Source: Pseudomonadota bacterium (GTDB taxonomy: Bacteria > Pseudomonadota > Gammaproteobacteria > Burkholderiales > Sulfuriferulaceae). Taken from it: a stretch of DNA of 33,378 nucleotides. The notes under the pieces are model-generated. The model was not told the origin of the DNA. It saw nothing but the letters and a program-made list of their open reading frames with translations, and made no database searches. Made by a program: the position numbers and the translations under genes. The DNA is taken from assembly GCA_021790515.1 (NCBI GenBank), contig JAJYHV010000010.1, forward strand, positions 1 to 33,378, written 5' to 3'. Within the stretch, counting starts at the first letter, position 1. Each line of letters starts with the position of its first letter. Positions 6,513 to 19,742 of the stretch are shown piece by piece.

Positions 6513-6610
6513 GGGAATCAGCGCTTTATTTCAGCATGACCAGGACGGGAAACGAGGACGGAATCAATTAATTTTGTGTGGTCAGAATGGTTTGGTGACT
6601 ATAATGCTGC

Positions 6611-7804
6611 TTAACGCGAAGTGGTTTCTGTTTTTTGACTTTCCATTTGATCAAACTTGTTCACTTTCCAGAGCAGTGTCGACACTCCCCATACCAACAA
6701 GAAAACGCCTACAATGACATACCCCAGCGCGCCAAAATCGAGATGACCGAGGTCGTCATAAAAACCTCCTTGAAGACGTAGCAGATGGATGAAAACCTGT
6801 AACAATTCGATACTACCGATGGCCAAAGCCACTGCAATCGACAAGCTTGTGGTTGTGAGATTGTAAAAAATCTTGCGCAGCGGATTGACGAGCGCCCAAC
6901 GGTAAACCTTTACCATCAACACACCATCGGTGGTATCCATCAGCGACATGCCTGCCGTGAACAGTATTGGCAACGACAACACCGCACCAATCGGTAAATT
7001 GCCGCTGGCTGCACCTGCGGTCATTGCCAGCAAGGCAATTTCTGAAGCCGTATCGAAGCCCAAGCCAAACAATAGACCCAGCGGATACATTTGCCAACTG
7101 CTTCGAACGAACCGTTGTAAACGACGACCAAGCAACCGGTTCAGCAAACCGCGCTTTGCCAGCAGAGCATCCAGATGGGCATGGCTATGCCGGCCGGTTT
7201 TGGCGAGACGCCAAACTTTAAGGATATCCAGCAACAACAAAAAATTGAGAATACCGATTAACCACAAGAAAAGTCCCGATACGCTGGCGCCGATCAAAGC
7301 ACCAAACTGTTGCAGTTCGGGCAAGCCATGCTTGACCGTATTAGCGGCGAATGCGATGGCCAACGCCAGAATGAACACCACCGTAGAATGCCCCAATGAA
7401 AAAAAGAAGCCAGTGCCAAACGGCTTTTGGCCTTTTTGCAACAGGTAGCGCACCGTATCGTCTACCGCAGCAATATGGTCAGCATCAAAAGCATGACGCA
7501 AACCAAACATATAGGCAGCAAAACCCAAACCTAACAGTGCCGGATAATGCGCCAGGTAGTAAAACAGCAACCCAAAGCCGAGCAGATGCATCAACAGGAT
7601 GACACCGTAAAATCCGCTCAAGCGCAACCATTCGGCGGCACTGAACCCGAAATGGTACAAGACATGGGCATTGGTTGCGTCGGGCGAATATTGTTCAAGC
7701 AGGTGGCGCCCACCGGTATGATTTGCCCACTTCGGCGGCATACGTTTCAAACCGAAACTTGCACGCCGCGTGGCTGCACAGCGACATGCATCGGAAATAA
7801 ACAA
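6611..7804 (-). CDS. NiCoT-family nickel/cobalt permease
   Basis: High-affinity inner-membrane Ni2+ (or Co2+) importer. Family signatures are all visible: RHAFDADHIAA in the second helix, FFFSLGHSTVVF, LGFDTASEIALL and GMSLMDTTDG. About eight hydrophobic helices are predicted. It is the last gene of the hydrogenase operon, 48 bases after the large-subunit stop, so nickel delivery for the active site is the likely role. The start is uncertain. A TTG at 7804 has a good AGGA five to six bases upstream and gives 397 residues. An ATG at 7741 gives 376 residues but lacks a ribosome site. The N-terminal extension with two cysteines would be unusual for the family. Confidence 0.92.
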   Translation of the reverse strand: MFISDACRCAATRRASFGLKRMPPKWANHTGGRHLLEQYSPDATNAHVLYHFGFSAAEWLRLSGFYGVILLMHLLGFGLLFYYLAHYPALLGLGFAAYMFGLRHAFDADHIAAVDDTVRYLLQKGQKPFGTGFFFSLGHSTVVFILALAIAFAANTVKHGLPELQQFGALIGASVSGLFLWLIGILNFLLLLDILKVWRLAKTGRHSHAHLDALLAKRGLLNRLLGRRLQRFVRSSWQMYPLGLLFGLGFDTASEIALLAMTAGAASGNLPIGAVLSLPILFTAGMSLMDTTDGVLMVKVYRWALVNPLRKIFYNLTTTSLSIAVALAIGSIELLQVFIHLLRLQGGFYDDLGHLDFGALGYVIVGVFLLVWGVSTLLWKVNKFDQMESQKTETTSR

Positions 7805-7852
7805 AAAATCCTGACCAGCGGGTTTATGTGGCGGGTATTGATCGCGATACTC

Positions 7853-9607
7853 CTAACGAATTTTTACTTCAATGAGTTCTTCGCCATCAGGATCGCTAAC
7901 GTGCACAGCACAGGCAATACAGGGGTCAAAACTGTGAATGGTGCGTAATATTTCCAGCGGTTGTTTGGGGTCTTGCAGATGGGTGCCTTTGAGCGCGGCT
8001 TCATAGGGTCCATCCTGTCCCTCTGCATCACGTGGCCCCGCATTCCAGGTGCTGGGAACGACGGCCTGATAATTGTCGATCTTGCCATCCTTGATGACAA
8101 TCCAATGTGCCAGAGAGCCGCGCGGAGCTTCCGTGTAACCCACGCCTTTGACCGTAGACGGCCAGGTAGAGGGTTCCCACAGCTTTTCATTAAATGTGCG
8201 CACATCGCCAGCCTTGATGTTGGCAATCAAATTGTCGTGCCAGGGTTGCATGGCATCGGCAATGATCTTGCTTTCCAGTGTGCGTGCTGCCGTGCGCCCC
8301 AGGGTGGAGTACAGTGCGGCAACGGGCAGGTCGAGTTTTTTCAGTGTCATGCTCACCAACGCTTGTGTTTGCTCATGTCCTTTGGCATACAGCATCAATA
8401 CGCGTGCCAGCGGGCCTACTTCCACGGCATGACCTTTCCAGCGCGGTGATTTGATCCAGGAGTAGGATTGATCCACATCTAACTGGGCATAGGGTGGCTT
8501 GGGTCCGCTGTAATCCAGATTGGTTTCGCCGACATAAGGATGCAGTCCCTTGTTTTTGCCTCCGCTGTAGTCATACCATGAGTGGGCAACATATTCTTGA
8601 ATTTGATCCTCGGCATTGAGATCGACAGGATGAATAGTGGACAGGTCGCGGTTTAAAATGACGCCGGAAGGAATCAGAAAGCTGTTGGTGTCGGACATAC
8701 CCTTTTCGGGAAAATCGCCATAACTCATGAAATTGCCAATTCCTTCGCCCAGCTTGAACCAGTCTTTATAGAAACCGGCGATGGCCAGTGTATCTGGCAG
8801 ATAAACCTGATCGACAAACTCACGCATCTGATGGATGATGTCCTGCACTTTTTGCAGTCCCTCCATGTTCAGCGAAGTGGTGCCAGAACTGGCGCCTTGA
8901 CCCTCAGGGTGAATGCTGATTGCGCATGGCACGCCACCCACCACAAAGTTGGGATGCGGATTCTTGCCCCCGAAAATTGCATGCAGTTGCGCCACATTAC
9001 GTTGCCAGGCCAGTGCATCCAAATAGTGGGCGACGGCCATCAGATTGGCCTCGGGCGGCAATTTGTAACCGGGGTTTCCCCAATATCCGTTGGCAAAGAT
9101 ACCGAGTTGACCACCTTCGACAAAACCCTTGAGTTTCTTCTGCACATCGGAAAAATAACCGGGAGAGGATTTGGCATAGCTGGAAATACTTTGTGCCAGC
9201 TCCGAAGTGGCTTTGGGGTCGGCCTTGAGTGCCGAGACGACATCGACCCAATCTAACGCATGCAGGTGATAAAAATGCATGACGTGATCGTGCACAAACT
9301 GTGCACCGATCATCATATTGCGGATCAATTGTGCATTGGCCGGAATGTCGTATTTCAGTGCGTTTTCCACTGCACGGACTGAGGCAATGCCGTGTACCAA
9401 GGTGCATACTCCGCAGATACGTTGGGCAAATGCCCAAGCATCACGAGGATCGCGGCCGCGCAAAATCAGTTCAATGCCGCGCACCATGGTGCCGGCACTG
9501 GAAGCACGGGTAATCATACCATTGGTATCTGTTTCGGCCTCAATGCGCAAATGCCCTTCGATGCGGGTAATCGGATCGACAATAATGCGGTTGCTGGGTG
9601 TGTTCAT
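7853..9607 (-). CDS. hynL: [NiFe] hydrogenase large (catalytic) subunit, Isp-type group 1 (probably 1e)
   Basis: Carries the NiFe(CN)2CO site that splits H2. The 584-residue protein has the N-terminal ligand motif RICGVC (C65, C68) and the C-terminal motif DPCIACAVH (C563, C566, H569). Fifteen residues follow H569 and would be cut off by the maturation protease encoded in the same operon. The N-terminus RIIVDPITRIEGHLRIE is canonical. The ATG overlaps the isp2 stop as ATGA. The subunit has no signal of its own and should be exported with the Tat-bearing small subunit. Placement after isp1-isp2 is the hallmark of the Isp-type enzymes of sulfur-oxidising and related bacteria; assignment to group 1e is from gene order, not phylogeny. 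Confidence 0.96.
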   Translation of the reverse strand: MNTPSNRIIVDPITRIEGHLRIEAETDTNGMITRASSAGTMVRGIELILRGRDPRDAWAFAQRICGVCTLVHGIASVRAVENALKYDIPANAQLIRNMMIGAQFVHDHVMHFYHLHALDWVDVVSALKADPKATSELAQSISSYAKSSPGYFSDVQKKLKGFVEGGQLGIFANGYWGNPGYKLPPEANLMAVAHYLDALAWQRNVAQLHAIFGGKNPHPNFVVGGVPCAISIHPEGQGASSGTTSLNMEGLQKVQDIIHQMREFVDQVYLPDTLAIAGFYKDWFKLGEGIGNFMSYGDFPEKGMSDTNSFLIPSGVILNRDLSTIHPVDLNAEDQIQEYVAHSWYDYSGGKNKGLHPYVGETNLDYSGPKPPYAQLDVDQSYSWIKSPRWKGHAVEVGPLARVLMLYAKGHEQTQALVSMTLKKLDLPVAALYSTLGRTAARTLESKIIADAMQPWHDNLIANIKAGDVRTFNEKLWEPSTWPSTVKGVGYTEAPRGSLAHWIVIKDGKIDNYQAVVPSTWNAGPRDAEGQDGPYEAALKGTHLQDPKQPLEILRTIHSFDPCIACAVHVSDPDGEELIEVKIR

Positions 9608-10965
9608 TTCTCCTCCAGATTGTCGGCGACCAACTCTAACAGGCTGAGCATGGTTTTATCCCAATGAAAGTGGTTTTGGCTATCATCAAAGGTTTGACGG
9701 CAGTTGGAGCAACTTGAAACCAGCAACTCAGCGCCCGTATCGTCCACCTGCTTCATTTTGATCTGGAATGCCTTGTAACGGAGGGGATCAGCCCGATGTA
9801 TGGTGACCACACCGCCGCCGCCGCCACAACACCAATTCAACCCCTTGTTGTTTTTCATTTCGATTAACGACACCCCCAAACCACTGAGCACATCACGCGG
9901 CGCTTCAATGGCACCACCACGCCGCGATATTTGGCAAGGGTCATGAAAAGTCAGCGTTTTGCCAAGCGGTTTGGTTTTTATCGCACCATTTTTGGTATTT
10001 TCCGCCAAAAATTCAGAGATGTGCAGTACCCTGAAAGGCAAAGGCTTGCCATAAATGTTTGCACCCTGCCAGCGCATTGCACCGTAGGCGTGTCCACATT
10101 CCGGCAGAAGCAACAATTTTGCCCCGGCAGCGATAGTGGCATGAATGAGCTTCATGCTCGCCTCCCGTTGCCAGGCCGCGTCACCGGAGAGCATACCGAA
10201 GTTCGTTGCCTCATAGCCATCGCTGCGAAAAGTCCAGTTCAGACCGAGGTGATTGAGAATTTTTGCCGTGGCAACAATCGAATCCGGATATTTCATGATT
10301 TCTATGGAAGACATGGTTGCGACAACGTCAGCCTGTGTTTTATCCATAGGGATTTCAACGCGATTGTCGTCGGCGAGCCATTCGCAGCGATCTTTGAATA
10401 CTGCGGGCGTGGCGCCAAGCGGGCTACCCTCGCGCCGGGCTCGTTCCGCCACAGCCCAGAGATCATGCGGTGCCAGTCCGGCCTGACTCATGCCATGACG
10501 CGCCAACCCAACCAGCGAGGCAATGTCGATGCCCATGGGGCAGATCAGCGTACAGCGACCGCACAAGGTACAACTGTCGTAAATCAGCGTTTGCCATTCT
10601 TCCAGCTGTGTCACTGTAACTTTTTTCTTCAGATTCAACGCTCGATAAATTATGGCGAATGGCCCCGCTTCCCGCTTATACGCTTGCTTGAACGGTTCCA
10701 GTTTCCAGATTGGCGTGTATTTGGGATCTTCGGTAACAAGGTAAAAATGACATGCGTCTGCGCACATGCCACAGTGAATGCACGATTCCATATAAGTGGC
10801 GACGACAGCACCAAAATCTTTTACGAAAGAACGCATTGCCAGTTCTACCCGTTGCGTGTCGGACAGGTCACCTTGCTTGTCATAACGCACCTCAGGGTCT
10901 TTTATCGAGAGACGCGGCTGAGCGGGTTCCAGAGAATGTGCGCTGTCAATATCTGCCGTGCTCAT
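9604..10965 (-). CDS. isp2: Isp2: HdrD-like iron-sulfur protein of the Isp-type hydrogenase
   Basis: Electron-transfer partner resembling the heterodisulfide reductase subunit HdrD. In its 453 residues there are two [4Fe-4S] ferredoxin motifs: CIHCGMCADAC (C62, C65, C68, C72) and CTLCGRCTLIC (C132, C135, C138, C142). The C-terminal part carries a full CCG motif: C in HDPCQ, CC in NWCCGGGGG, and CxxC in SSCSNCRQ. A weaker upstream copy is seen at PECGHAYGAMRW. The ATG overlaps the isp1 stop (ATGA), and the stop overlaps the large-subunit start. It probably acts on the cytoplasmic side with Isp1. Whether the CCG site handles a real thiol/disulfide substrate is unknown. Confidence 0.92.
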   Translation of the reverse strand: MSTADIDSAHSLEPAQPRLSIKDPEVRYDKQGDLSDTQRVELAMRSFVKDFGAVVATYMESCIHCGMCADACHFYLVTEDPKYTPIWKLEPFKQAYKREAGPFAIIYRALNLKKKVTVTQLEEWQTLIYDSCTLCGRCTLICPMGIDIASLVGLARHGMSQAGLAPHDLWAVAERARREGSPLGATPAVFKDRCEWLADDNRVEIPMDKTQADVVATMSSIEIMKYPDSIVATAKILNHLGLNWTFRSDGYEATNFGMLSGDAAWQREASMKLIHATIAAGAKLLLLPECGHAYGAMRWQGANIYGKPLPFRVLHISEFLAENTKNGAIKTKPLGKTLTFHDPCQISRRGGAIEAPRDVLSGLGVSLIEMKNNKGLNWCCGGGGGVVTIHRADPLRYKAFQIKMKQVDDTGAELLVSSCSNCRQTFDDSQNHFHWDKTMLSLLELVADNLEEK

Positions 10966-11615
10966 ATTGATGCTCCCTTACGTTCAAACAATGCGCCAGT
11001 CGTGCCGCGCGAAATAAAGATCAGTGCCGAATGCATCAGTTTGCCAAAAGGAAACCACACCAGCAGCAACGCGACGGACAAAATATGAATCGCCAGCAAT
11101 GTTTCGTAACGCGCGCCAACGTGAGCAACGGCCAGCATACCGGTTGCGACGGGGGCAGTCGTGACAAACCAACTGAAATAGTCGTCGAAATTCGACAACA
11201 ATCGCAGCACCGGATGGCTGAGTCGTCGAATCAATATGACGATGAGAGTGACGAGGGTGATTGCGCTGGTCAGATTAATGACCGCACTGGGTAAATTAGG
11301 CCAATCAAACCCTGTCAATGCTTTGAGAAACAAAATATGAGGTGCAAAACCAAACACGATAATCACCAGACCAATGTGAAAAACATAGCTGAGAGACAAA
11401 CCGAAAATAGTACGTTGCCTGAACTCGCGGTGTGGCCAGGATCGGGCAATGATTAACTTGATGGCGCCAAGCCAGTTGGCGGCATTGCGTGCTTCCGAAA
11501 AATCAGGACTGCGTTTGAGCAGAAGAATACCCAGCAAGCGCCAGGCAATGCCAAAAAAGAACACTGTAGCGGCCCAAGTCAATGCAGGCCCACGGGCAAA
11601 TTGCAGCAAGTCCAT
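10962..11615 (-). CDS. isp1: Isp1: NarI-like b-type cytochrome membrane subunit
   Basis: Membrane anchor expected to carry electrons between the periplasmic hydrogenase and Isp2 or the quinone pool through two b haems. The 217-residue protein has about five hydrophobic helices, with candidate haem histidines in SYVFHIGLVIIVFGFAPHIL, VAHVGARYETLLAIHI and GKLMHS. It resembles the gamma subunit of nitrate reductase and HdrE. The ATG at 11615 was chosen because it gives a normal first helix (LLQFARGPALTW), has a GGAG site, and follows the small-subunit stop by one base. A longer reading frame upstream would run into that gene. The stop overlaps the isp2 start by four bases. Confidence 0.9.
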   Translation of the reverse strand: MDLLQFARGPALTWAATVFFFGIAWRLLGILLLKRSPDFSEARNAANWLGAIKLIIARSWPHREFRQRTIFGLSLSYVFHIGLVIIVFGFAPHILFLKALTGFDWPNLPSAVINLTSAITLVTLIVILIRRLSHPVLRLLSNFDDYFSWFVTTAPVATGMLAVAHVGARYETLLAIHILSVALLLVWFPFGKLMHSALIFISRGTTGALFERKGASI

Positions 11616-11616
11616 G

Positions 11617-12675
11617 TTATTTCTCCTCGCCAATATGGGTCTGATGTTCGCGTGACAGAGCTGCCGCGACTGCGCCTGCGGCGACACCACCCAATGCGCC
11701 AATGGCGACAACATGCGCATTAGGTGCAAGCGGTGTCGATAACGGTTGGTAAAAACTGCCTTTGTCCCAAAAATCGGGTTCAGAGCAACCCAGACAACCA
11801 TGTCCGGATTCAATCGGATAACTCACGCCGCCATTCCATTTGATGGTGGCGCAAGCGTTGTGCGTCGTCGGCCCCTTGCAACCCAGTTCATAAAGACACC
11901 AGCCATTGCGTGCGCCTTCGTCATCAAAGGTTTTGGCAAATTTTCCTTGATCGTAAAATGGCCGTCGATAACAACGGCCATGGATGGTGTCAGCAAAAAA
12001 CACCTTGGGGCGCCCAAGGTGATCCAATTCCGGTAATTTTTCATATGTAACAAAATAAGCCAGCGTGCCTGCAATAACCGAAGGGATGGGGGGACAGCCC
12101 GGCACATTCATGATTGGTTTGTCTTTGATGATGTCGGATACCGATACCGCGCCAGTCGGGTCAGGATTGGCATGCGGAATACCGCCGTAAGAAGAACATG
12201 TTCCTACGGCTACGATAGCCGCTGCACCTTTGGCAGCATCTATCAGCCTGTCATGGTTGGAAACACCGGCCACCGTAGAATACACTCCGCCGTCTTTAGT
12301 CGGAATGGAGCCGTCAACGATGAGGAGATATTTGCCATAGGAGGATTTCATGGCCTCGTCACGAGCCGATTCGGCAGCTTCACCAGAGGCTGCCTGCAGC
12401 GTCTCCTGATAATCGAGTGAAACCATTTCGAAAATCATTTGCTCCAGTGTCGGTTCGAAGGAGCGGGTCAGCGATTCCACACAGCCGGTGCATTCCTGAA
12501 AAGACAACCAGATCACCGACTGGCGCTTTGTTTGGTCAAGTGCGCCAGCCATGGCCAGAGCGACACCAGGCGGCAGTGCCATCAACGAAGCCATGGCCGT
12601 GCAAAATTTGAGTAAGGAACGGCGACTCACGCCGCGCCGCGCCAAACCGGCGCCCAAGGTATCAGGTTCGTTCAT
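11617..12675 (-). CDS. hynS: [NiFe] hydrogenase small subunit with Tat signal, Isp-type group 1
   Basis: Electron-relay subunit holding three Fe-S clusters. Start chosen at the ATG at 12675, which has GGAG seven bases upstream. It gives 352 residues and puts the Tat motif SRRSLLKF at residues 17-24, followed by a hydrophobic stretch to about 42. The proximal-cluster motif is CTGC (C62, C65). O2-tolerant group 1d enzymes have CTCC, so the standard O2-sensitive cluster is predicted. A GHGCLGCSEPDFWDKG segment near the C-terminus is typical of the family. A C-terminal hydrophobic helix (about 318-340) would anchor it in the membrane. It lies between the HupH-like gene and isp1, after a 175-base spacer. 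Confidence 0.95.
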   Translation of the reverse strand: MNEPDTLGAGLARRGVSRRSLLKFCTAMASLMALPPGVALAMAGALDQTKRQSVIWLSFQECTGCVESLTRSFEPTLEQMIFEMVSLDYQETLQAASGEAAESARDEAMKSSYGKYLLIVDGSIPTKDGGVYSTVAGVSNHDRLIDAAKGAAAIVAVGTCSSYGGIPHANPDPTGAVSVSDIIKDKPIMNVPGCPPIPSVIAGTLAYFVTYEKLPELDHLGRPKVFFADTIHGRCYRRPFYDQGKFAKTFDDEGARNGWCLYELGCKGPTTHNACATIKWNGGVSYPIESGHGCLGCSEPDFWDKGSFYQPLSTPLAPNAHVVAIGALGGVAAGAVAAALSREHQTHIGEEK

Positions 12676-12711
12676 GATTTGCTCCATTCGTTCGTGACTT
12701 GCTCCAACGGG
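12672..12711 (-). repeat. Imperfect 20-bp tandem duplication of the hynS ribosome-binding/start region
   Basis: Two adjacent 20-base units (12672-12691 and 12692-12711) match at 14 of 20 positions and share TTGCTCCA, which on the minus strand is TGGAGCAA. The gene-proximal unit supplies the Shine-Dalgarno and ATG of hynS. In the distal unit the ATG position reads ACG. Confidence 0.5.
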
Positions 12712-12833
12712 TTGCCAACCACCCGACTGTTCAATATTTTTTAATTTTTTATGTCGACTCACTACTCCCAAGAAATTTTTGGATTTATTCTGCCTGACTG
12801 CTCTTGCGAGCATAAGGGAACAATATGAAAATG

Positions 12834-12863
12834 AATCAGCGGTTCCCTAATCAGCGGTTTCCT
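12834..12863. repeat. 15-bp tandem duplication at the 3' end of the hupH-like gene
   Basis: AATCAGCGGTTCCCT (12834-12848) is followed directly by AATCAGCGGTTTCCT (12849-12863), 14 of 15 identical. The second copy contains the hupH-like stop codon, so the gene end has been duplicated into the spacer. The 175-base spacer 12676-12850 also holds a small TGCTC-TTGC-GAGCA hairpin at 12799-12812. No clear promoter was found in it. Confidence 0.7.
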
Positions 12864-13273
12864 AACAAATCATTTAACCGGACAACTCCCTCTCGAATAT
12901 CTTCCGCAGGCGCTTTCAGGATTTCAGGAATGGCCGTTATTTCAAGCAAATCCGCCACGACGCTCCCCTTTTCATCATAATATGTCAGCCACCACACACC
13001 AGGATAAATTGTCTCGCGTACCTTGGTGTCACCAATGACATCAACATGCGCATGAACTTCGCCATCACCCAAAGTGACGCGCAGCAATTCATGGTCGCTA
13101 ACCGTCAGAGGAAGGCTACGCAAATCTATGGCGCCGGTCTGTCCGGTTGTCATCAATATTTTCAGCCGTGCGAGGATTTCATGCAGGATGGCATTCGTAT
13201 TACCGGACAAGCCATCTGGTTCGTCTGGCAGCGATTTAACCACTTTTACCGTAATGTGACTCAAGGTGTTCAT
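12851..13273 (-). CDS. Short HupH/HyaF-like hydrogenase expression protein
   Basis: Cytoplasmic accessory protein thought in this family to help mature or couple the small subunit. The 140-residue protein matches the HupH C-terminal domain pattern: a central LGDGEVHAHVD, then ETIYPGVWWLTYYDEKG, then a LEITAIPEIL ending. Typical HupH/HyaF proteins are about twice as long; only one domain copy is present here. The ATG at 13273 was chosen because it overlaps the protease stop as ATGA. A GTG at 13282 would add three residues. A tandem repeat lies on its stop codon. The role in this Isp-type system is inferred from position between the protease and small-subunit genes. Confidence 0.78.
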   Translation of the reverse strand: MNTLSHITVKVVKSLPDEPDGLSGNTNAILHEILARLKILMTTGQTGAIDLRSLPLTVSDHELLRVTLGDGEVHAHVDVIGDTKVRETIYPGVWWLTYYDEKGSVVADLLEITAIPEILKAPAEDIREGVVRLNDLLGNR

Positions 13274-13737
13274 GTGCGCCACGCCGCGATTAACTCAAGG
13301 GTCAGGTCACAGGCATAAGGGATGGCTTGCGCAACGGCGACAGTGGGAGCTTCGCCCCAATCCACGATGTCAGGTTGTATACCGACCAGCGCACGACGTT
13401 CCGGTAAATGACCTGCAAGATGCGCCACGGCCATCAAATCGAGCAAACCGACTTCATGTACGCTGCGTTTGCGATTGACGCCCAAAAAATGATCCATGTC
13501 CGCGCCAATAAAGGCACGAACCGTCCCGGGTGGACTGTCCAATTCAGCAGCATCAATCACAATGAGTTGGCTGGCGTCTTCGACATCGCCGGCAAGAGAA
13601 AAACTGAGCGTCCCGCCATCGATGAATTCGACGTCGGTCAGATGAAAGTGCTCTTGTGCCAGGATGCGCACCGTATGCACCCCCACACCCTCATCACAGA
13701 GCAGCGTATTGCCAATACCGAGCACTAGCGTAGTCAT
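13270..13737 (-). CDS. Hydrogenase maturation protease (HyaD/HupD/HynC type)
   Basis: Endopeptidase that removes the C-terminal tail of the large subunit after nickel is inserted. The 155-residue protein starts TTLVLGIGNTLLCDEGVGVH, the family signature, with the nickel-sensing glutamate (E of DEG). A second metal-binding aspartate is expected in VIDAAELD, and a third ligand histidine in SVHEVGLLDLM. The ATG at 13737 gives the canonical N-terminus. An upstream extension of 26 residues does not look like the family. No Shine-Dalgarno is obvious (TTTTC before ATG). It is the first gene of the structural operon, facing hypC across the regulatory spacer. Its target is the hynL product tail after H569. 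Confidence 0.92.
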   Translation of the reverse strand: MTTLVLGIGNTLLCDEGVGVHTVRILAQEHFHLTDVEFIDGGTLSFSLAGDVEDASQLIVIDAAELDSPPGTVRAFIGADMDHFLGVNRKRSVHEVGLLDLMAVAHLAGHLPERRALVGIQPDIVDWGEAPTVAVAQAIPYACDLTLELIAAWRT

Positions 13738-13772
13738 GAAAATTATACCAATATAATTCAATAACTTACTAA

Positions 13773-13913: not shown

Positions 13914-13943
13914 CCCTGATATTCAGACTGAAAAATATCAGGG
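13914..13943. promoter_or_regulatory. 30-bp perfect inverted repeat upstream of hypC
   Basis: Arms CCCTGATATT (13914-13923) and AATATCAGGG (13934-13943) are separated by 10 bases. Allowing a bulge, the pairing extends to TGCC and GGCA. It sits just upstream of a TATACT (13966-13971) that could be the hypC -10, so it overlaps the expected -35 position. It may be an operator or an RNA hairpin; no T-run follows. The rest of the 269-base spacer 13738-14006 is AT-rich and holds no gene. Confidence 0.5.
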
Positions 13944-14006: not shown

Positions 14007-14249
14007 ATGTGTCTGGCCATACCTATGCAAATTACTGTGATTGATGGCTTCGTCGCGCAGGCATCTGCCAAAGGCGTGACACGCGAGGTCAGTCTTTTCT
14101 TGCTGCAAGATGACATGCCTATGGCTGGTGATTACGTGATGGTGCATGTGGGTTATGCCATCCAGACCATAAGCGCGGTCGAGGCACAAAATGCCTGGGA
14201 TATTTATGACGAAATGCTGTCTGTCGAATCGTCTGCGCCTCATGCATGA
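14007..14249 (+). CDS. hypC: Hydrogenase maturation chaperone HypC
   Basis: Small chaperone that with HypD carries the Fe(CN)2CO unit to the large subunit. The 80-residue protein begins MCLAIPMQITVID; Cys2, exposed after methionine removal, is the essential iron-binding residue. The ATG at 14007 was chosen over the upstream in-frame GTG because family members start MC[LI]AIP and a GAGG lies seven bases before it. It opens the hypCABDFE operon, divergent from the structural genes. The 3' end overlaps hypA by eight bases. Confidence 0.95.
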   Translation: MCLAIPMQITVIDGFVAQASAKGVTREVSLFLLQDDMPMAGDYVMVHVGYAIQTISAVEAQNAWDIYDEMLSVESSAPHA

Positions 14250-14586
14250 GTTATCGGTATGCCAAGCGTTGGTGACTCAGGTCATTGACATTGCGCAGCA
14301 AAATTCAGCCCGCGAAGTGCTGACGATTACGCTGCATATCGGTCCGTTGTCAGGTGTCGAGCCTGCGTTGCTGGTCAATGCTTTTCCTCTGGCAGCAGCA
14401 GGAAGCGTGGCTGCATCGGCACAATTGGTCATCGAACCACAACCGTTGCGGGTACACTGCCAGACTTGCGGTGCCGATACCGAGGCAACAGCCAATCGTT
14501 TGCTGTGCGGAGTATGTGGAGATTATCACACCCAATTGATCAGTGGCGACGAGCTGCTGCTGGCGAATCTGGAATTAATGTCATAA
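14242..14586 (+). CDS. hypA: Nickel insertion protein HypA
   Basis: Delivers nickel with HypB to the hydrogenase large subunit. The 114-residue protein starts MHEL, where His2 is the nickel ligand. It has the zinc site of two CxxC motifs (C73, C76, C89, C92). The ATG at 14242 was chosen because MHEL is invariant; it lies inside the end of hypC in another frame. The stop is 12 bases before hypB. Confidence 0.95.
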   Translation: MHELSVCQALVTQVIDIAQQNSAREVLTITLHIGPLSGVEPALLVNAFPLAAAGSVAASAQLVIEPQPLRVHCQTCGADTEATANRLLCGVCGDYHTQLISGDELLLANLELMS

Positions 14587-14598
14587 AAAGGATTGCTC

Positions 14599-15414
14599 AT
14601 GTGCGACAGCTGTGGCTGCAATGTCACGCCAGGCAACAAACATCTGGCGTATAAACCCATCCAGAATGGCGGCAGTGCCGTTTCCATATTAAAAAAACTG
14701 TTGGCGCACAATGACGATCAAGCTGTGCACAATCGTGCACATTTTAACATGCACGGCATCCTTGTCATCAACCTGATGTCCTCTCCCGGCTCTGGCAAAA
14801 CAGCTTTGCTGGAAGCAAGCATCGACGCGCTTAAACATGAATTCCGTTTGGCCGTGATTGAAGGGGATCTGGAAACCGAAAACGATGCCGCACGTATCCG
14901 CACTCACGGCGTACCCGCCTATCAAATTACGACGGGTAGCGCATGCCATCTTGATGCGCACATGGTGCATGAGGCTTTGCATCACCTGAATTTATCCGAG
15001 ATAGACATCCTGTTTATTGAAAATGTCGGCAATTTGGTGTGTCCGGCGAGTTTCGATCTGGGGCAACACCGCAATGTGACATTGCTGTCAGTGACAGAGG
15101 GTGACGACAAACCTGCCAAATATCCGGTGATGTTTCGTGCCGCCGATGCCGTCGTGTTGAGCAAGATAGATTTGTTGTCGGTACTGGATGATTTTGACCC
15201 GGCGCAAGCTGAACATCATTTGCGCCAATTGGCAAGTACTGCGCCGCTGTTATCGCTTTCGGCGCGCAAAGGGCAAGGCATGACAGTCTGGCTCGACTGG
15301 TTGCGCCATGAACTTGCTGCGCAACGCGCTCACGCGCAGGACGGAGCAACAGCCAGACCTCACCTGCAGCCCAACGACACCGACGTGAATATACAGACCG
15401 GGTTTTCATCATGA
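14599..15414 (+). CDS. hypB: GTPase HypB, nickel insertion
   Basis: SIMIBI GTPase that powers nickel delivery with HypA. In the 271-residue protein, MCDSCGC at the N-terminus is the high-affinity nickel site (CxxCGC). The P-loop SSPGSGKT lies at 61-68, EGDLET is the switch region, ENVGNLVCP holds the metal site at the G domain, and SKIDL gives guanine specificity. It lacks the histidine-rich stretch that stores nickel in some HypB proteins, in keeping with a dedicated nickel permease gene nearby. The ATG at 14599 follows AGGA; a TTG two codons upstream is less likely. The stop overlaps hypD by ATGA. Confidence 0.95.
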   Translation: MCDSCGCNVTPGNKHLAYKPIQNGGSAVSILKKLLAHNDDQAVHNRAHFNMHGILVINLMSSPGSGKTALLEASIDALKHEFRLAVIEGDLETENDAARIRTHGVPAYQITTGSACHLDAHMVHEALHHLNLSEIDILFIENVGNLVCPASFDLGQHRNVTLLSVTEGDDKPAKYPVMFRAADAVVLSKIDLLSVLDDFDPAQAEHHLRQLASTAPLLSLSARKGQGMTVWLDWLRHELAAQRAHAQDGATARPHLQPNDTDVNIQTGFSS

Positions 15415-16511
15415 GGTACGATGCAGCTTACTGGTTACAAAAAATTCATGCGCTGGAACTGCCGCTCCACGTTAGAATCATGAATGTATGCGGCGGCCAC
15501 GAACGCTCCATCACAATGGCTGGCTTGCGCGGCGTTCTGCCGCGCAACATCGATCTGATCCCTGGCCCTGGCTGCCCGGTATGCGTCTGCCCCGAAGAAG
15601 ATATCTATCAGGCCATCCAATTGTCATTAAGCGAAAAAATTATTCTGGTGGCATTCGGCGACATGTTGCGCGTGCCTGTCAACGTACCCAAAAACGAGCC
15701 GCGCTCACTGGATGCAGCGCGTGCTGCAGGCGCAGATATCCGGCCGGTTGCCAGCCCGACCGAAGCGGTACAAATCGCCCATAACAATCCGAATGTTCCT
15801 GTGGTGTTTTTTGCTGCCGGGTTTGAGACCACGACCGCACCTGTGGCGGCAATGCTGGCTGCAGGCATACCACAAAACCTGTCTGTTCTGCTGTCCGGGC
15901 GGCTGACCTGGCCCGCCGTCGCCATGTTGCTGGAAGCAGGGAAACCAGGGTTCGATGCACTCATTGCGCCCGGACATGTTGCCACAATCATGGGTGCGGA
16001 TGAATGGAATTTCGTCCCTGCCCAACATGGTTTACCTGCGGCGGTAGCCGGTTTTACGCCACAATCGTTGCTCGCGGCAATTTATTCGGTCTTGCGGCAA
16101 TTGCTGACTGACCGACCTTTTCTCGATAATTGCTATCCGGAACTGGTGCGCCCTGCCGGTAATAGCAGTGCCCGCCGTCAACTGGCGCAAGTCATGACCG
16201 TCACCGACGCCAATTGGCGTGGTGTGGGCGTCATTCCGGCTTCAGGCTTCGGCATTCAGCCAGCATTGGCAGTGCATGATGCCAGACTGCGCTTCCCCGC
16301 TTACAACGACCCCTCACGCAAACGCGCCGGTGAAATGCCGCCTGGATGTGATTGCGCTCGGGTTGTTCTCGGCAAAATTTATCCTGATCAGTGTCGCCTG
16401 TACGGCAAAGCATGTACTCCGCGTGCACCCGTCGGACCGTGTATGGTATCCGATGAAGGTGCCTGCAGAATTTGGTGGGCGAGCGGCATTCGTGAGGCGA
16501 AAGTCGCTTGA
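15411..16511 (+). CDS. hypD: HypD, scaffold for Fe(CN)2CO assembly
   Basis: Iron-sulfur protein on which, with HypC, cyanide and CO are attached to iron. The 366-residue protein has the conserved blocks MNVCGGHE, GPGCPVCVCP and FGDMLRVP, then GFETTTAP. The cysteine-rich C-terminus (PPGCDCARVVLGKIYP, then CRLYGKACTP and GPCMVSDEGAC) carries the [4Fe-4S] ligands. The length is normal for the family. It overlaps hypB at its start and hypF at its end, both by four bases. Confidence 0.96.
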   Translation: MRYDAAYWLQKIHALELPLHVRIMNVCGGHERSITMAGLRGVLPRNIDLIPGPGCPVCVCPEEDIYQAIQLSLSEKIILVAFGDMLRVPVNVPKNEPRSLDAARAAGADIRPVASPTEAVQIAHNNPNVPVVFFAAGFETTTAPVAAMLAAGIPQNLSVLLSGRLTWPAVAMLLEAGKPGFDALIAPGHVATIMGADEWNFVPAQHGLPAAVAGFTPQSLLAAIYSVLRQLLTDRPFLDNCYPELVRPAGNSSARRQLAQVMTVTDANWRGVGVIPASGFGIQPALAVHDARLRFPAYNDPSRKRAGEMPPGCDCARVVLGKIYPDQCRLYGKACTPRAPVGPCMVSDEGACRIWWASGIREAKVA

Positions 16512-18745
16512 ATCCGCTGTTGGCAACGCATTTCGTGGTATCCGGCCGGGTACAGGGCGTGGGTTTTCGTCCCTTTGTATACCGGTTGGCGCAGCACTTC
16601 GAGTTAAATGGCTGGGTGCAAAACAAGCTAGGCCAGGTAGAAATTCATGTCGAAGGAACACCGCAACATTTGGCTGCTTTTGCGACGGCCTTGCTGAACG
16701 AAGCGCCCCCACTGTCACAAGCTCGCATTCTTGAACAAATGGCCGCACCGGTCACTGGTACCAGCGGTTTCGTGATCCGTTCCAGCGCCGGCGCTACGCA
16801 ACCGGATATTCATGTGCCACCGGATTATTTTACTTGCGACGCATGTCTGGCCGAGTTGTTCAACACACAAGATCCCCGTTACCGTTATCCATTTATCAAT
16901 TGCACGCAATGCGGCCCTCGTTACACATTAATTGAATACTTGCCTTACGATCGCGCCGCGACCAGTATGCGTCACTTTACATTGTGCGCTACTTGTCGCG
17001 CTGAATACGAAAATCCGCTGGATCGGCGATTTCATGCCGAACCGCTGGCTTGCCCCCAATGCGGACCGCAACTGCTGTTCAAACACGACAAACTCATGCT
17101 GACAGGTGAAAGTGCTTTGGCGGCGACCGTCGCGGCATTGCGCGACGGTCAGATTGTGGCGCTGAAGGGTGTCGGAGGATATCATCTGTTGTGTGATGCC
17201 AATTCAGACCTTGCAGTGATGCGATTGCGCACGCGCAAAATGCGGCCGCACAAACCTCTGGCAGTAATATTTCCCGATCTGGCGAGCGTGCAGCGCGTTG
17301 CAGTACTGAGCGAGCGCGAAGCCGATTTTTTGTCCGGCCCACAACGACCTGTCCTGTTGCTCAAACAGCGCACCGATAGCCTGCTTTCTGCACAAGTGGC
17401 GCCGGGACTGACGGAGATTGGTGCAATGTTGCCTTATAGCCCGCTGCATCATTTGCTGCTCGCCGATTTCGCAGCACCGTTGGTGGCAACGTCAGCCAAC
17501 ATCAGTGGTGAACCAGTCATTACCGATAACACGGAAATTGAAGCAAGATTATCTGGGGTGGCCGATGCATTCCTGCATCATGACAGACCCATCGTGCGCC
17601 CTGCCGACGACCCAGTCTTTCGTATGAGCGCAAATCAACCGCGACCATTACGACTGGGGCGTGGCACATCTCCGCTGGAAATGAGCTTGCCGTTCGAACT
17701 GGAAACACCGTTACTGGCGGTAGGTGGACACAATAAAAATACGGTTGCATTGGCATGGAAACAACGCGTGATTATTTCACCACACATCGGCGATCTAGGT
17801 TCGCTACGATCAATGACCGTATTTGAACAAATGATTGCCGATTTGCAGAAGCTGTACAACATGACAGTGACCCGTGTGGTGTGCGATGCGCATGGCGGTT
17901 ATGCCAGTAGCCGTTGGGCACGAACCAGCGGATTGACGCTGGATACGGTCTTTCATCATCACGCCCATGCTTCTGCGTTGGCTGGGGAATATCCTGACAT
18001 GGACAATTGGCTGATATTTACCTGGGACGGTACGGGTTATGGGGAAGACGGCACAATGTGGGGTGGCGAAGCATTATATGGCAGCCCCGGAAAATGGGTA
18101 CGAGTGGCAAGCATGCGCTCATTTCATTTACCCGGCGGTGATGCTGCCGGGCGGGCCCCTTGGCGCTCCGCTGCCGCCTTGGCGTGGGAAACCGGAACTG
18201 CATGGACAGATTTGCCGGTGGATAACGACCTGGTACAGGCAGCCTGGCAACAACGCATCAATACACAACAAACTTCGGCCGTGGGGCGTTTGTTTGACGC
18301 GGCAGCGGCTTTTACCGGCCTGACCAGCATGGCGAGCTTCGAAGGGCAAGGACCGATGTGGCTGGAAGCCGCCGCACGCGGTGATGCGTGCGATGCCATC
18401 GCGCTCCCACTGAACCGCGATAAACAGGGGGTTTGGCGCACCGATTGGGCACCATTGATCGCCATGCTGACAGATACAGCGCTGAGCACAAGCCAGCGTG
18501 CGGATTTATTTCATACCAGCCTCGCGCAAGCGCTATTGGCACAGGTACAGGTGATACAAACGACATACTCAATCCAGTGTGTCGGGTTGGCTGGCGGGGT
18601 ATTCCAAAATCGCCGTCTGACTGAATTGGTTGTTCATTTGCTCACTTCGAATGGCTTGCCAGTAAAGCTGGCGCAAAGCGTTCCTGTCAATGATGGCGGA
18701 ATCAGCTTTGGTCAGATTATAGAAACAGGATACCGACATGACTGA
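16508..18745 (+). CDS. hypF: Carbamoyltransferase HypF
   Basis: Makes the thiocarboxamide on HypE from carbamoyl phosphate, the source of the cyanide ligands. The 745-residue protein has the expected order of domains. An acylphosphatase domain comes first (GRVQGVGFRPFVYRLA, about 12-27). Paired zinc fingers follow (CDACLAE, CTQCGPR, CATCRAEY, CPQCGPQ, about 110-190). A YrdC-like domain (about 200-390) and a Kae1-like C-terminal domain (HHHAHAS, then WDGTGYGEDGTMWGGE) complete the protein. The start is a TTG at 16508 overlapping the hypD stop as TTGA, with GAGG upstream; no ATG lies before the conserved acylphosphatase motif. The 3' end overlaps hypE by eight bases. Confidence 0.95.
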   Translation: MNPLLATHFVVSGRVQGVGFRPFVYRLAQHFELNGWVQNKLGQVEIHVEGTPQHLAAFATALLNEAPPLSQARILEQMAAPVTGTSGFVIRSSAGATQPDIHVPPDYFTCDACLAELFNTQDPRYRYPFINCTQCGPRYTLIEYLPYDRAATSMRHFTLCATCRAEYENPLDRRFHAEPLACPQCGPQLLFKHDKLMLTGESALAATVAALRDGQIVALKGVGGYHLLCDANSDLAVMRLRTRKMRPHKPLAVIFPDLASVQRVAVLSEREADFLSGPQRPVLLLKQRTDSLLSAQVAPGLTEIGAMLPYSPLHHLLLADFAAPLVATSANISGEPVITDNTEIEARLSGVADAFLHHDRPIVRPADDPVFRMSANQPRPLRLGRGTSPLEMSLPFELETPLLAVGGHNKNTVALAWKQRVIISPHIGDLGSLRSMTVFEQMIADLQKLYNMTVTRVVCDAHGGYASSRWARTSGLTLDTVFHHHAHASALAGEYPDMDNWLIFTWDGTGYGEDGTMWGGEALYGSPGKWVRVASMRSFHLPGGDAAGRAPWRSAAALAWETGTAWTDLPVDNDLVQAAWQQRINTQQTSAVGRLFDAAAAFTGLTSMASFEGQGPMWLEAAARGDACDAIALPLNRDKQGVWRTDWAPLIAMLTDTALSTSQRADLFHTSLAQALLAQVQVIQTTYSIQCVGLAGGVFQNRRLTELVVHLLTSNGLPVKLAQSVPVNDGGISFGQIIETGYRHD

Positions 18746-19742
18746 TACGTATATCACCTTGGCACACGGTAATGGTGGACGCTATATGCGAGAGTTGATT
18801 GAGGACGTGTTTGCCCGCCATCTGGGCAATCCACTGCTGGATGTCAACGTCGACGCGGCACGATTACCCTGGAATGCGCATGAACTGATGTTTACCACCG
18901 ACGGCTTTACCGTGCAACCACTGGAATTTCCCGGTGGGGATATCGGCAGTCTGGCCGTCAATGGCACCGTCAACGATCTGGCAGTCTCCGGTGCTACGCC
19001 ACGCTATTTGTCGCTGAATGCCTTTATTGAGGAAGGTTTGCCGCTGGCGCAACTGGATCGCATCGTTGCCAGTCTGGCACGGGCAGCCAAGGAAGCCGGA
19101 GTGGTCGTGGCAGCAGGCGATACCAAAGTGCTACGGCGTGGCGAGGGAGGTGGACTGTATCTGGCGACTGCCGGTATCGGTGTACGTATGCCGGATCTTG
19201 AGTTGGGCATGCAATGCATCCGGGCAGGCGATACCATCCTGGTCTCCGGCCCGGTAGGCGATCACGGCACCGCCGTGATGCTGGCGCGCGAACAGTTTGG
19301 TCTCAAGGGAGATCTGGCCTCGGATTGCGCCAGCGTGCTGCCGCTGACGCAAGCATTATCAGATTTGCCAGGTCTGCGTTTTATGCGTGATCCTACACGT
19401 GGAGGATTGGCCACTGTAGTACATGAAATTTGCCGTGCGTCGGGATTGCGCGCTGACTTGCAACAGTCCGACATTCCTGTACGCGATCAGGTGATGTCGG
19501 TGTGCGAAATGCTGGGTTATGACCCATACTATCTGGCTTGTGAAGGCCGAGTGGTGGCTGTGGTGGCACCGGATGACGCCACGGCGGCACTCGCCATTTG
19601 GCACGCGTTGCCCAACGGGAAAAATGCCGCGCTGATCGGCCAACTGCAATCCGGGCGGGCACAAGTAGTGTTGCACACACCTTTGGGCGGAACACGCATT
19701 TTAGATGAACTGGAAGATGACCCCTTGCCGCGAATCTGCTGA
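18738..19742 (+). CDS. hypE: HypE, thiocyanate-forming maturation protein
   Basis: Dehydrates the carbamoyl group received from HypF to a thiocyanate used for the Fe-CN ligands. The 334-residue AIR-synthase-like protein has the N-terminal LAHGNGGRYMRELI, the ATP-binding GGDIGSLAVNGTVNDLAVSGA, and DPTRGGLATVVHEI. The C-terminus is PRIC, whose last cysteine (C334) is the carbamoyl acceptor. The ATG at 18738 lies within the end of hypF. It closes the hyp operon. The following 137 bases contain a lone TATAAT (19784-19789) without a good -35, and a short leader-like frame before the RIO kinase. Confidence 0.96.
   Translation: MTDTYITLAHGNGGRYMRELIEDVFARHLGNPLLDVNVDAARLPWNAHELMFTTDGFTVQPLEFPGGDIGSLAVNGTVNDLAVSGATPRYLSLNAFIEEGLPLAQLDRIVASLARAAKEAGVVVAAGDTKVLRRGEGGGLYLATAGIGVRMPDLELGMQCIRAGDTILVSGPVGDHGTAVMLAREQFGLKGDLASDCASVLPLTQALSDLPGLRFMRDPTRGGLATVVHEICRASGLRADLQQSDIPVRDQVMSVCEMLGYDPYYLACEGRVVAVVAPDDATAALAIWHALPNGKNAALIGQLQSGRAQVVLHTPLGGTRILDELEDDPLPRIC

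Follow-up and report, generated by a model that had tools for sequence, protein, structure and literature searches.

Does an Isp-type [NiFe] hydrogenase operon inherit its electron-transfer subunits, Isp1 and Isp2, together with its catalytic subunits, HynS and HynL? We address this question from an operon in a stretch of 33,378 nucleotides (hereafter the window; contig JAJYHV010000010.1, positions 1 to 33,378) of a Pseudomonadota genome of the family Sulfuriferulaceae (GCA_021790515.1; 80 contigs, 2.0 Mb, 96% complete). Our reading, to which we assign a probability of about 0.75, is that a group 1e hydrogenase carries a cassette inherited apart from its catalytic core, with Isp1 serving as an adapter and Isp2 as an exchangeable head. 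The operon occupies positions 6611-13737 of the minus strand in the order hupD-hupH-hynS-isp1-isp2-hynL-nicT and is divergent from a complete hyp maturation operon:

13270..13737, minus strand, hupD (hynD), large-subunit maturation protease (HyaD/HybD-like), 155 aa; Pfam HycI 1.2e-19, TIGR00072 above cut-off
12851..13273, minus strand, hupH, HupH_C-domain protein, probable maturation factor, 140 aa; Pfam HupH_C 2.4e-29
11617..12675, minus strand, hynS, small subunit; TIGR00391 421 bits, 3myr_A the best solved relative
10962..11615, minus strand, isp1, integral membrane b-type cytochrome-like subunit; TmcC/HmcE-like below cut-off, Nitrate_red_gam
9604..10965, minus strand, isp2, type B; Pfam Fer4_8 and CCG
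7853..9607, minus strand, hynL, [NiFe] large subunit; Pfam NiFeSe_Hases 795.7 bits, 3myr_B 940.7 bits
6611..7741, minus strand, nicT, NicO-family Ni/Co permease; PF03824 292 bits, TIGR00802 above cut-off
14007..19742, plus strand, hypCABDFE, complete divergent maturation operon; profile matches for hypA, B, D, E and F
14007-14249, plus strand, hypC; read from sequence and matched in relatives
14242-14586, plus strand, hypA; Pfam/NCBIfam
14593-15414, plus strand, hypB; Pfam/NCBIfam
15411-16511, plus strand, hypD; Pfam/NCBIfam
16508-18745, plus strand, hypF; Pfam/NCBIfam
18738-19742, plus strand, hypE; Pfam/NCBIfam

The junctions from hupD to nicT measure -4, 175, 1, -4, -4, and 111 bases (negative values are overlaps). 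The seven-gene order, the 175-base spacer between hupH and hynS, and the 4-base overlaps of the original prediction are retained, whereas the overlap it had placed between hynS and isp1 is a 1-base gap and its 48-base gap before nicT becomes 111 bases; the divergent hyp operon is an addition to that prediction. The start of nicT was corrected to ATG 7741 from TTG 7804, which lies outside the conserved protein, and in 3 other loci (L003, L004, and L068) the permease starts at the ATG equivalent to 7741, each exactly 111 bases after hynL, with the L003 match covering the first 24 codons only, at a contig end. In 8 relatives the hupH-hynS spacer is 2, 13, 24, 25, 36, 60, 87, or 88 bases long, and we rejected the 175-base spacer of the window as a promoter region because neither its length nor its sequence is conserved in relatives. 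Promoter-like sites numbered 6 between 6400 and 14300, against 7.8 expected. A perfect inverted repeat between hypC and hupD (13914-13943), which scores also as a terminator-like hairpin, was likewise rejected as a regulatory site, being absent from what relatives conserve. At 13738-13760, a TATAAT box conserved in L004 and L068 ends 4 bases upstream of the hupD ATG, so close that the hupD transcript may be leaderless. Copies of (G)AACCGCTGATT were identified at 12834-12860, near hupH, and at 6516-6527, past nicT; with up to 2 mismatches allowed, the window holds 8 matches against 3.1 expected, a possible small dispersed repeat.

HynL matches its Pfam hydrogenase family beyond chance (796 bits). 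Among solved structures, its best relative is the membrane-bound hydrogenase of Allochromatium vinosum (3MYR; 71% identity, 940.7 bits, with the next at 757), which is likewise the best for HynS and which we take to be a group 1e enzyme. HynS carries a twin-arginine signal (RRSLLKF) and a C-terminal hydrophobic tail, and HynL ends in DPCIACAVH followed by a 15-residue peptide that, as a protease substrate, fits the presence of HupD. The CTGC motif of HynS spans residues 62-65, and Cys 62, 65, 160, and 194, presumably the ligands of the proximal cluster, are conserved in 95-100% of the compared rows. O2-tolerant (group 1d) enzymes have a six-cysteine proximal cluster, with 2 further cysteines close by. 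HynS lacks this cluster, with CTGC at one extra position and Gly at the other, and the earlier argument from CTGC against O2 tolerance of this kind is upheld, both extra positions being Gly. In the window, isp1 and isp2 lie between hynS and hynL, and excerpts of the literature describe hynS-isp1-isp2-hynL as the group 1e arrangement (PMC7735108). The group 1e label rests on the nearest solved relative (940.7 versus 757 bits) together with this gene order, and both support the original prediction that the operon would encode an Isp-type (group 1e) [NiFe] hydrogenase.

This is the one [NiFe] large subunit above the family cut-off in the genome, a second match scoring 21.7 bits, below it. HynL at least 80% identical to that of the window was identified in 11 of 18 congeneric genomes. 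One genome of the genus (G007) is identical to Sulfuriferula multivorans TTN across 4779 bases, which makes the window that of a Sulfuriferula relative. The genome also carries dsrA, a DsrK-like gene on the contig of the window, 4 DsrC-family genes, and an HdrC-B-A-x-C-B-like (sHdr-type) cluster (G000 contig 61; L161, 2202-7967) whose scores are all below the NCBIfam cut-offs. From these sulfur genes, the host is probably a Sulfuriferula-like sulfur oxidizer.

The nickel permease gene, nicT, is the only NicO gene of the genome; its product passes the NicO/HoxN permease model TIGR00802 (353.5 bits, cut-off 333.05) and falls below the narrower NicT equivalog NF052500 (397.7 bits, cut-off 450). 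A permease dedicated to the hydrogenase, as originally proposed, is therefore plausible from its being the sole NicO gene, but we rejected NicT as a fixed operon member, as it was found after hynL in 4 of the 11 congeneric genomes with the operon (the window's own, G004, G008, and G015, the last at a contig end). For G003, one of the 18 congeners, an absence would be weak evidence, that genome being 80% complete with its hynL contig read only a short way. In S. multivorans, a shorter permease relative (43%) was found downstream of hynL in 2 pieces. One alternative, that this is a standard group 1e operon, remarkable for nothing beyond a nickel permease of its own, draws on the fact that all its parts come from known families in the gene order given for Acidithiobacillus ferrooxidans and others in the excerpted descriptions; we consider it improbable, because it explains neither the Isp types nor the pairs in formate dehydrogenase operons reported below, and the permease is no regular companion of hynL among congeners.

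In Isp1, 4 histidines (H80, H93, H177, and H195) are invariant among 83 hydrogenase-linked sequences, enough for 2 b haems. Isp2 has 2 [4Fe-4S] ferredoxin motifs, C290, and a complete CCG motif (C344, C379, C380, C419, and C422), with the ligands invariant in 92 hydrogenase-linked Isp2, and the ligands of both subunits recur in 13 pairs outside hydrogenase operons. The AlphaFold2 model of Isp2 (pLDDT 85) best matched the fold of EtfD of Mycobacterium smegmatis (TM 0.67 by query), and HdrB chains were among the matches that followed. Isp1 resembles TmcC, HmcE, and DsrM and Isp2 resembles HmcF, TmcB, and DsrK, in the manner of the DsrMK, HmcEF, TmcCB, and HdrDE complexes, but all scores of the window Isp1 and Isp2 are below the curated cut-offs of the DsrMK, HmcEF, and TmcCB families (for Isp2, 213-223 bits versus 400-750 for the DsrK, HmcF, and TmcB equivalogs), and Isp2 is 29% identical to the DsrK-like protein of its own genome. 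Six other Isp2 (3 of type A and 1 each of types B, C, and D) scored 192-244 bits against the DsrK cut-off of 400, about the distance of the window; with distances to DsrK about equal, we rejected the idea that the Isp2 types are kin of different known complexes.

We compared 80 named loci, the best matches to the window HynL and thus a sample that leans to the relatives of the window, in which HynL is 74 to 95% identical to that of the window. Identity of near-full Isp2, by contrast, is 38-44% in some loci and 50% or more in the others. Single linkage with a cut at 56% Isp2 identity defined the types, so that cross-type pairs fall below 56% by construction. The 92 operons typed in this way (without the duplicates L084, L100, L103, and L104) comprised 60 of type A, 24 of type B, including the window, and 8 others in 6 small groups. 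Cross-type pairs reach HynL identities of up to 86.7% with an Isp2 identity of 41.1%, and the most distant pair within type B has 66.4% in HynL and 56.2% in Isp2; in the close pair L026 (type B) and L030 (type A), the values are 85% and 42%. With the linkage cut in mind, Isp2 identities of the two kinds of pair stay apart at each HynL level where cross-type pairs exist: the 95th percentile for cross-type pairs (41-45) never reaches the 5th for same-type pairs (58-60). Three operons have an Isp2 between the types (L075, L053, and L055, at 55%, 54%, and 50% identity to the window) and fall on the B side of the Isp2 tree, so that the sharp step is one between type A and the rest.

The order hynS-isp1-isp2-hynL was found in 78 of 91 loci, with 10 cut by contig ends and 3 rearranged (L053, L055, and L048). 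In L055 (8247-13031) the order is hynS-isp1-hynL-isp2, and in L053 (1-3215) isp2 likewise follows hynL; both carry a third Isp2 type, 50-54% identical to the window. Plasmid records with an Isp2 match numbered 32, the best at 42% in Methylovirgula and the rest, among the matches listed, at 27% or less.

All trees are quick searches. In the first HynL trees, built without L084 and without loci short of near-full Isp2, type B was scattered, and the AU test on HynL alone was modest (p 0.031). A tree of the HynS core and HynL (56 rows: 21 of the 24 type B, 28 of the 60 type A, and 7 of the 8 other operons) requires a minimum of 4 changes between A and B, and AU tests on the 2 subunits rejected a single clade for type A (delta lnL 212, p 1e-68) as well as for type B (delta lnL 199, p 7e-5). 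These results support types that appear separate and incongruent with the catalytic subunits. Among 62 hand-picked genomes, DsrA scored above cut-off in 31 of the 35 with type A, 10 of the 20 with type B, and 3 of the remaining 7 (Fisher p 0.003); we do not claim a link between type B and Dsr absence, as the contrast rests on only 3-4 independent pairs.

The borders of the cassette were examined at matched HynL identity (76-82%), for HynS, HynL, Isp1, and Isp2 in 65 loci, a set that omits most close congeners and operons without HynS or Isp1. Identities for B-B, A-A, and A-B pairs were 73, 67, and 41% for Isp2, 59, 54, and 42% for Isp1, and 48, 43, and 32% for the HynS tail, which thus co-varies with the Isp type. 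No type effect was identified in the HynS core (residues 50-310; 73, 77, and 74%), the first 40 residues of HynL (73, 71, and 70%), HupD (55, 54, and 54%), or HupH (41, 39, and 39%). The hyp genes were rejected as followers of the cassette, since A-B pairs are not the lowest for HypA, HypB, HypC, or HypD. With the effect confined to the HynS tail, Isp1, and Isp2, a single replacement of the middle is simpler than replacement of both flanks, and the comparison supports a segment, HynS tail-Isp1-Isp2, whose inheritance would be separate from that of HupD, HupH, and the HynSL core and which would have switched between A and B at least 4 times on the catalytic-subunit tree.

It could instead be argued that nothing was exchanged, Isp1 and Isp2 simply evolving faster or having diverged along with the acceptor of the cell within vertically inherited operons. 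Such a history would accommodate an Isp1 that is less conserved than HynL throughout, ligands that are identical in all types, and the 3 operons with intermediate Isp2. It is hard to reconcile with the gap between cross-type and same-type Isp2, even allowing for the linkage cut, with the lack of a type effect in the HynS core, HupD, and HupH, or with the AU tests on the catalytic subunits, and we regard it as quite unlikely compared with a cassette inherited apart.

A class-wide search with Isp2 matched 132 of 369 genomes at E <= 1e-30, with matches near 30% identity taken as DsrK. All 53 places outside the window with at least 37% Isp2 identity were read, along with one further locus of the genus, and these 54 loci comprised 41 hydrogenase operons (36 recognized by HynL and 5, at contig ends, by HynS), 12 FDH3-like formate dehydrogenase operons (9 recognized by FdhA; L143, L195, and L201 by FdhC alone), and one locus (L142) with neither enzyme. 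The order fdhA-fdhB-fdhC-isp1-isp2 was found in all 9 loci that reach fdhA. In L146, FdhB is above the FDH3_beta NCBIfam cut-off and FdhC above the gamma cut-off, as is FdhC of L143, and FdhA of L146 and L179 best matched formate dehydrogenase alpha, below cut-off. An Isp1-Isp2 pair related to that of the hydrogenases, with all 4 His and 14 Cys, accompanies the FDH3-type enzyme (FdhABC), but the latter is a molybdopterin enzyme with its own FdhC, and its Isp1 falls in a separate clade. Related pairs thus occur in operons of 2 unrelated dehydrogenases, with constant ligands, as the loci read support. Among the matches listed in titles and abstract openings of the open-licence PMC literature, we found no description of isp1-isp2 exchange or of isp1-isp2 in formate dehydrogenase operons.

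Two of the loci differ in their surroundings. L142 (8942-14463; G108:C55) carries isp1-isp2 of type B but no hydrogenase. A radical SAM gene comes next, along with genes for a c7-like cytochrome, an Fe-S protein, and NrfD, and the locus resembles a DsrMKJOP set that has an Isp pair as its base. In L136 (319-8698; G301:C81), the formate dehydrogenase operon with its Isp pair adjoins a gene for a TupA-like tungstate-binding protein (best NCBIfam match, below cut-off), and this formate dehydrogenase may therefore use tungsten.

The 2 subunits have different histories in these operons. The Isp2 tree (93 rows: 20 of the 60 type A, 19 of the 24 type B, all 8 others, 45 further read loci, and one DsrK; LG+G4 without mixture, with long branches joined to the DsrK outgroup) puts the formate dehydrogenase rows in 3 places: type A contains 10 of them, another groups with type D, and the last branches off basally to the non-A types; grouping FDH-linked Isp2 as one clade gave an AU p of 7e-50, with 3 changes. 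In the Isp1 tree (15 type A, 19 type B, 7 others, 12 formate dehydrogenase rows, and L142), all 12 formate dehydrogenase rows form one clade (SH-aLRT 100). An old duplication, with ancestors carrying 2 full hyn operons that differed in their Isp pairs, later loss of one or the other by lineage, and gene conversion of hynSL, might be suggested by the 2 isp1-isp2 pairs of 7 genomes (G144, G191, G213, G214, G268, G301, and G409), but it is the least likely account, as in all 7 the pairs belong to one hydrogenase and one formate dehydrogenase operon, the loci read include no genome that combines a full type A with a full type B hyn operon, and the hynS core and hynL would have to be converted on either side of an unconverted middle.

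Among known systems, the HydSL enzymes of Thiocapsa and A. ferrooxidans and the enzyme of A. vinosum share, in the excerpted descriptions, the gene order, Tat-type small subunit, b-type Isp1, and heterodisulfide-reductase-like Isp2. The window pair is of type B, with an Isp2 about 40% identical to type A; the pairs of Thiocapsa, A. vinosum, and A. ferrooxidans may be of any type. For A. vinosum, the order to which G075 belongs was searched with 3MYR, which took in one genome, at 77%. Type A includes L062, a MAG labelled Thiobacillus denitrificans, a species named in an excerpt of PMC2621215 as having the hynS-isp1-isp2-hynL gene order. Excerpts of PMC11018855 model Isp1 and Isp2 of the crenarchaeal Isp-type enzyme (group 1g, SUL2) as a relay to quinone and a cytoplasmic acceptor, and the likeness to this membrane/cytoplasmic relay is drawn from that description; the enzyme is archaeal and of another catalytic subgroup.

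By family, HynSL would be exported by the Tat system, attach to the membrane, and split H2 in the periplasm, after maturation by HupD, HupH, and HypCABDFE with nickel supplied by NicT. Within the membrane, the haems of Isp1 would receive electrons from the Fe-S relay of HynS and, judging from ligands and homology, pass them on to quinone or else to the DsrK/HdrD-like Isp2, an Fe-S protein whose CCG cluster site would be cytoplasmic. The flow to quinone via Isp1 and to a cytoplasmic acceptor via Isp2 would follow the model for the archaeal relatives (PMC11018855, in excerpts), and electron transfer to quinone or to a thiol/sulfur partner, as the original prediction suggested, fits the ligands. 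The ligands, identical in types A and B, give no sign of a functional difference between them. From the 2 trees, Isp1, with the HynS tail, would be a docking adapter fitted to its partner enzyme, and Isp2 an exchangeable cytoplasmic head with the same cofactors whichever dehydrogenase feeds it electrons. The operon itself would thus be a new member of group 1e, and the new part would be its exchangeable Isp cassette.

More tentatively, and at somewhat less than even odds, we propose 3 tiers: a catalyst (hydrogenase or formate dehydrogenase), a partner-specific adapter formed by Isp1 and the HynS tail, and an interchangeable Isp2 head whose type would fix the cytoplasmic acceptor. H2 and formate might then share one thiol/sulfur-linked sink, which exchange of the head would retune without touching the catalyst, and this arrangement might be general in proteobacterial energy metabolism. 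The natural swaps provide matched operon pairs in which nearly equal catalysts carry different heads, and in the formate dehydrogenase operons a related head sits on another enzyme; the question of the acceptor is therefore open to testing by cassette swaps. A classification of these hydrogenases that considers only HynL overlooks the component on which the fate of the electrons may depend.
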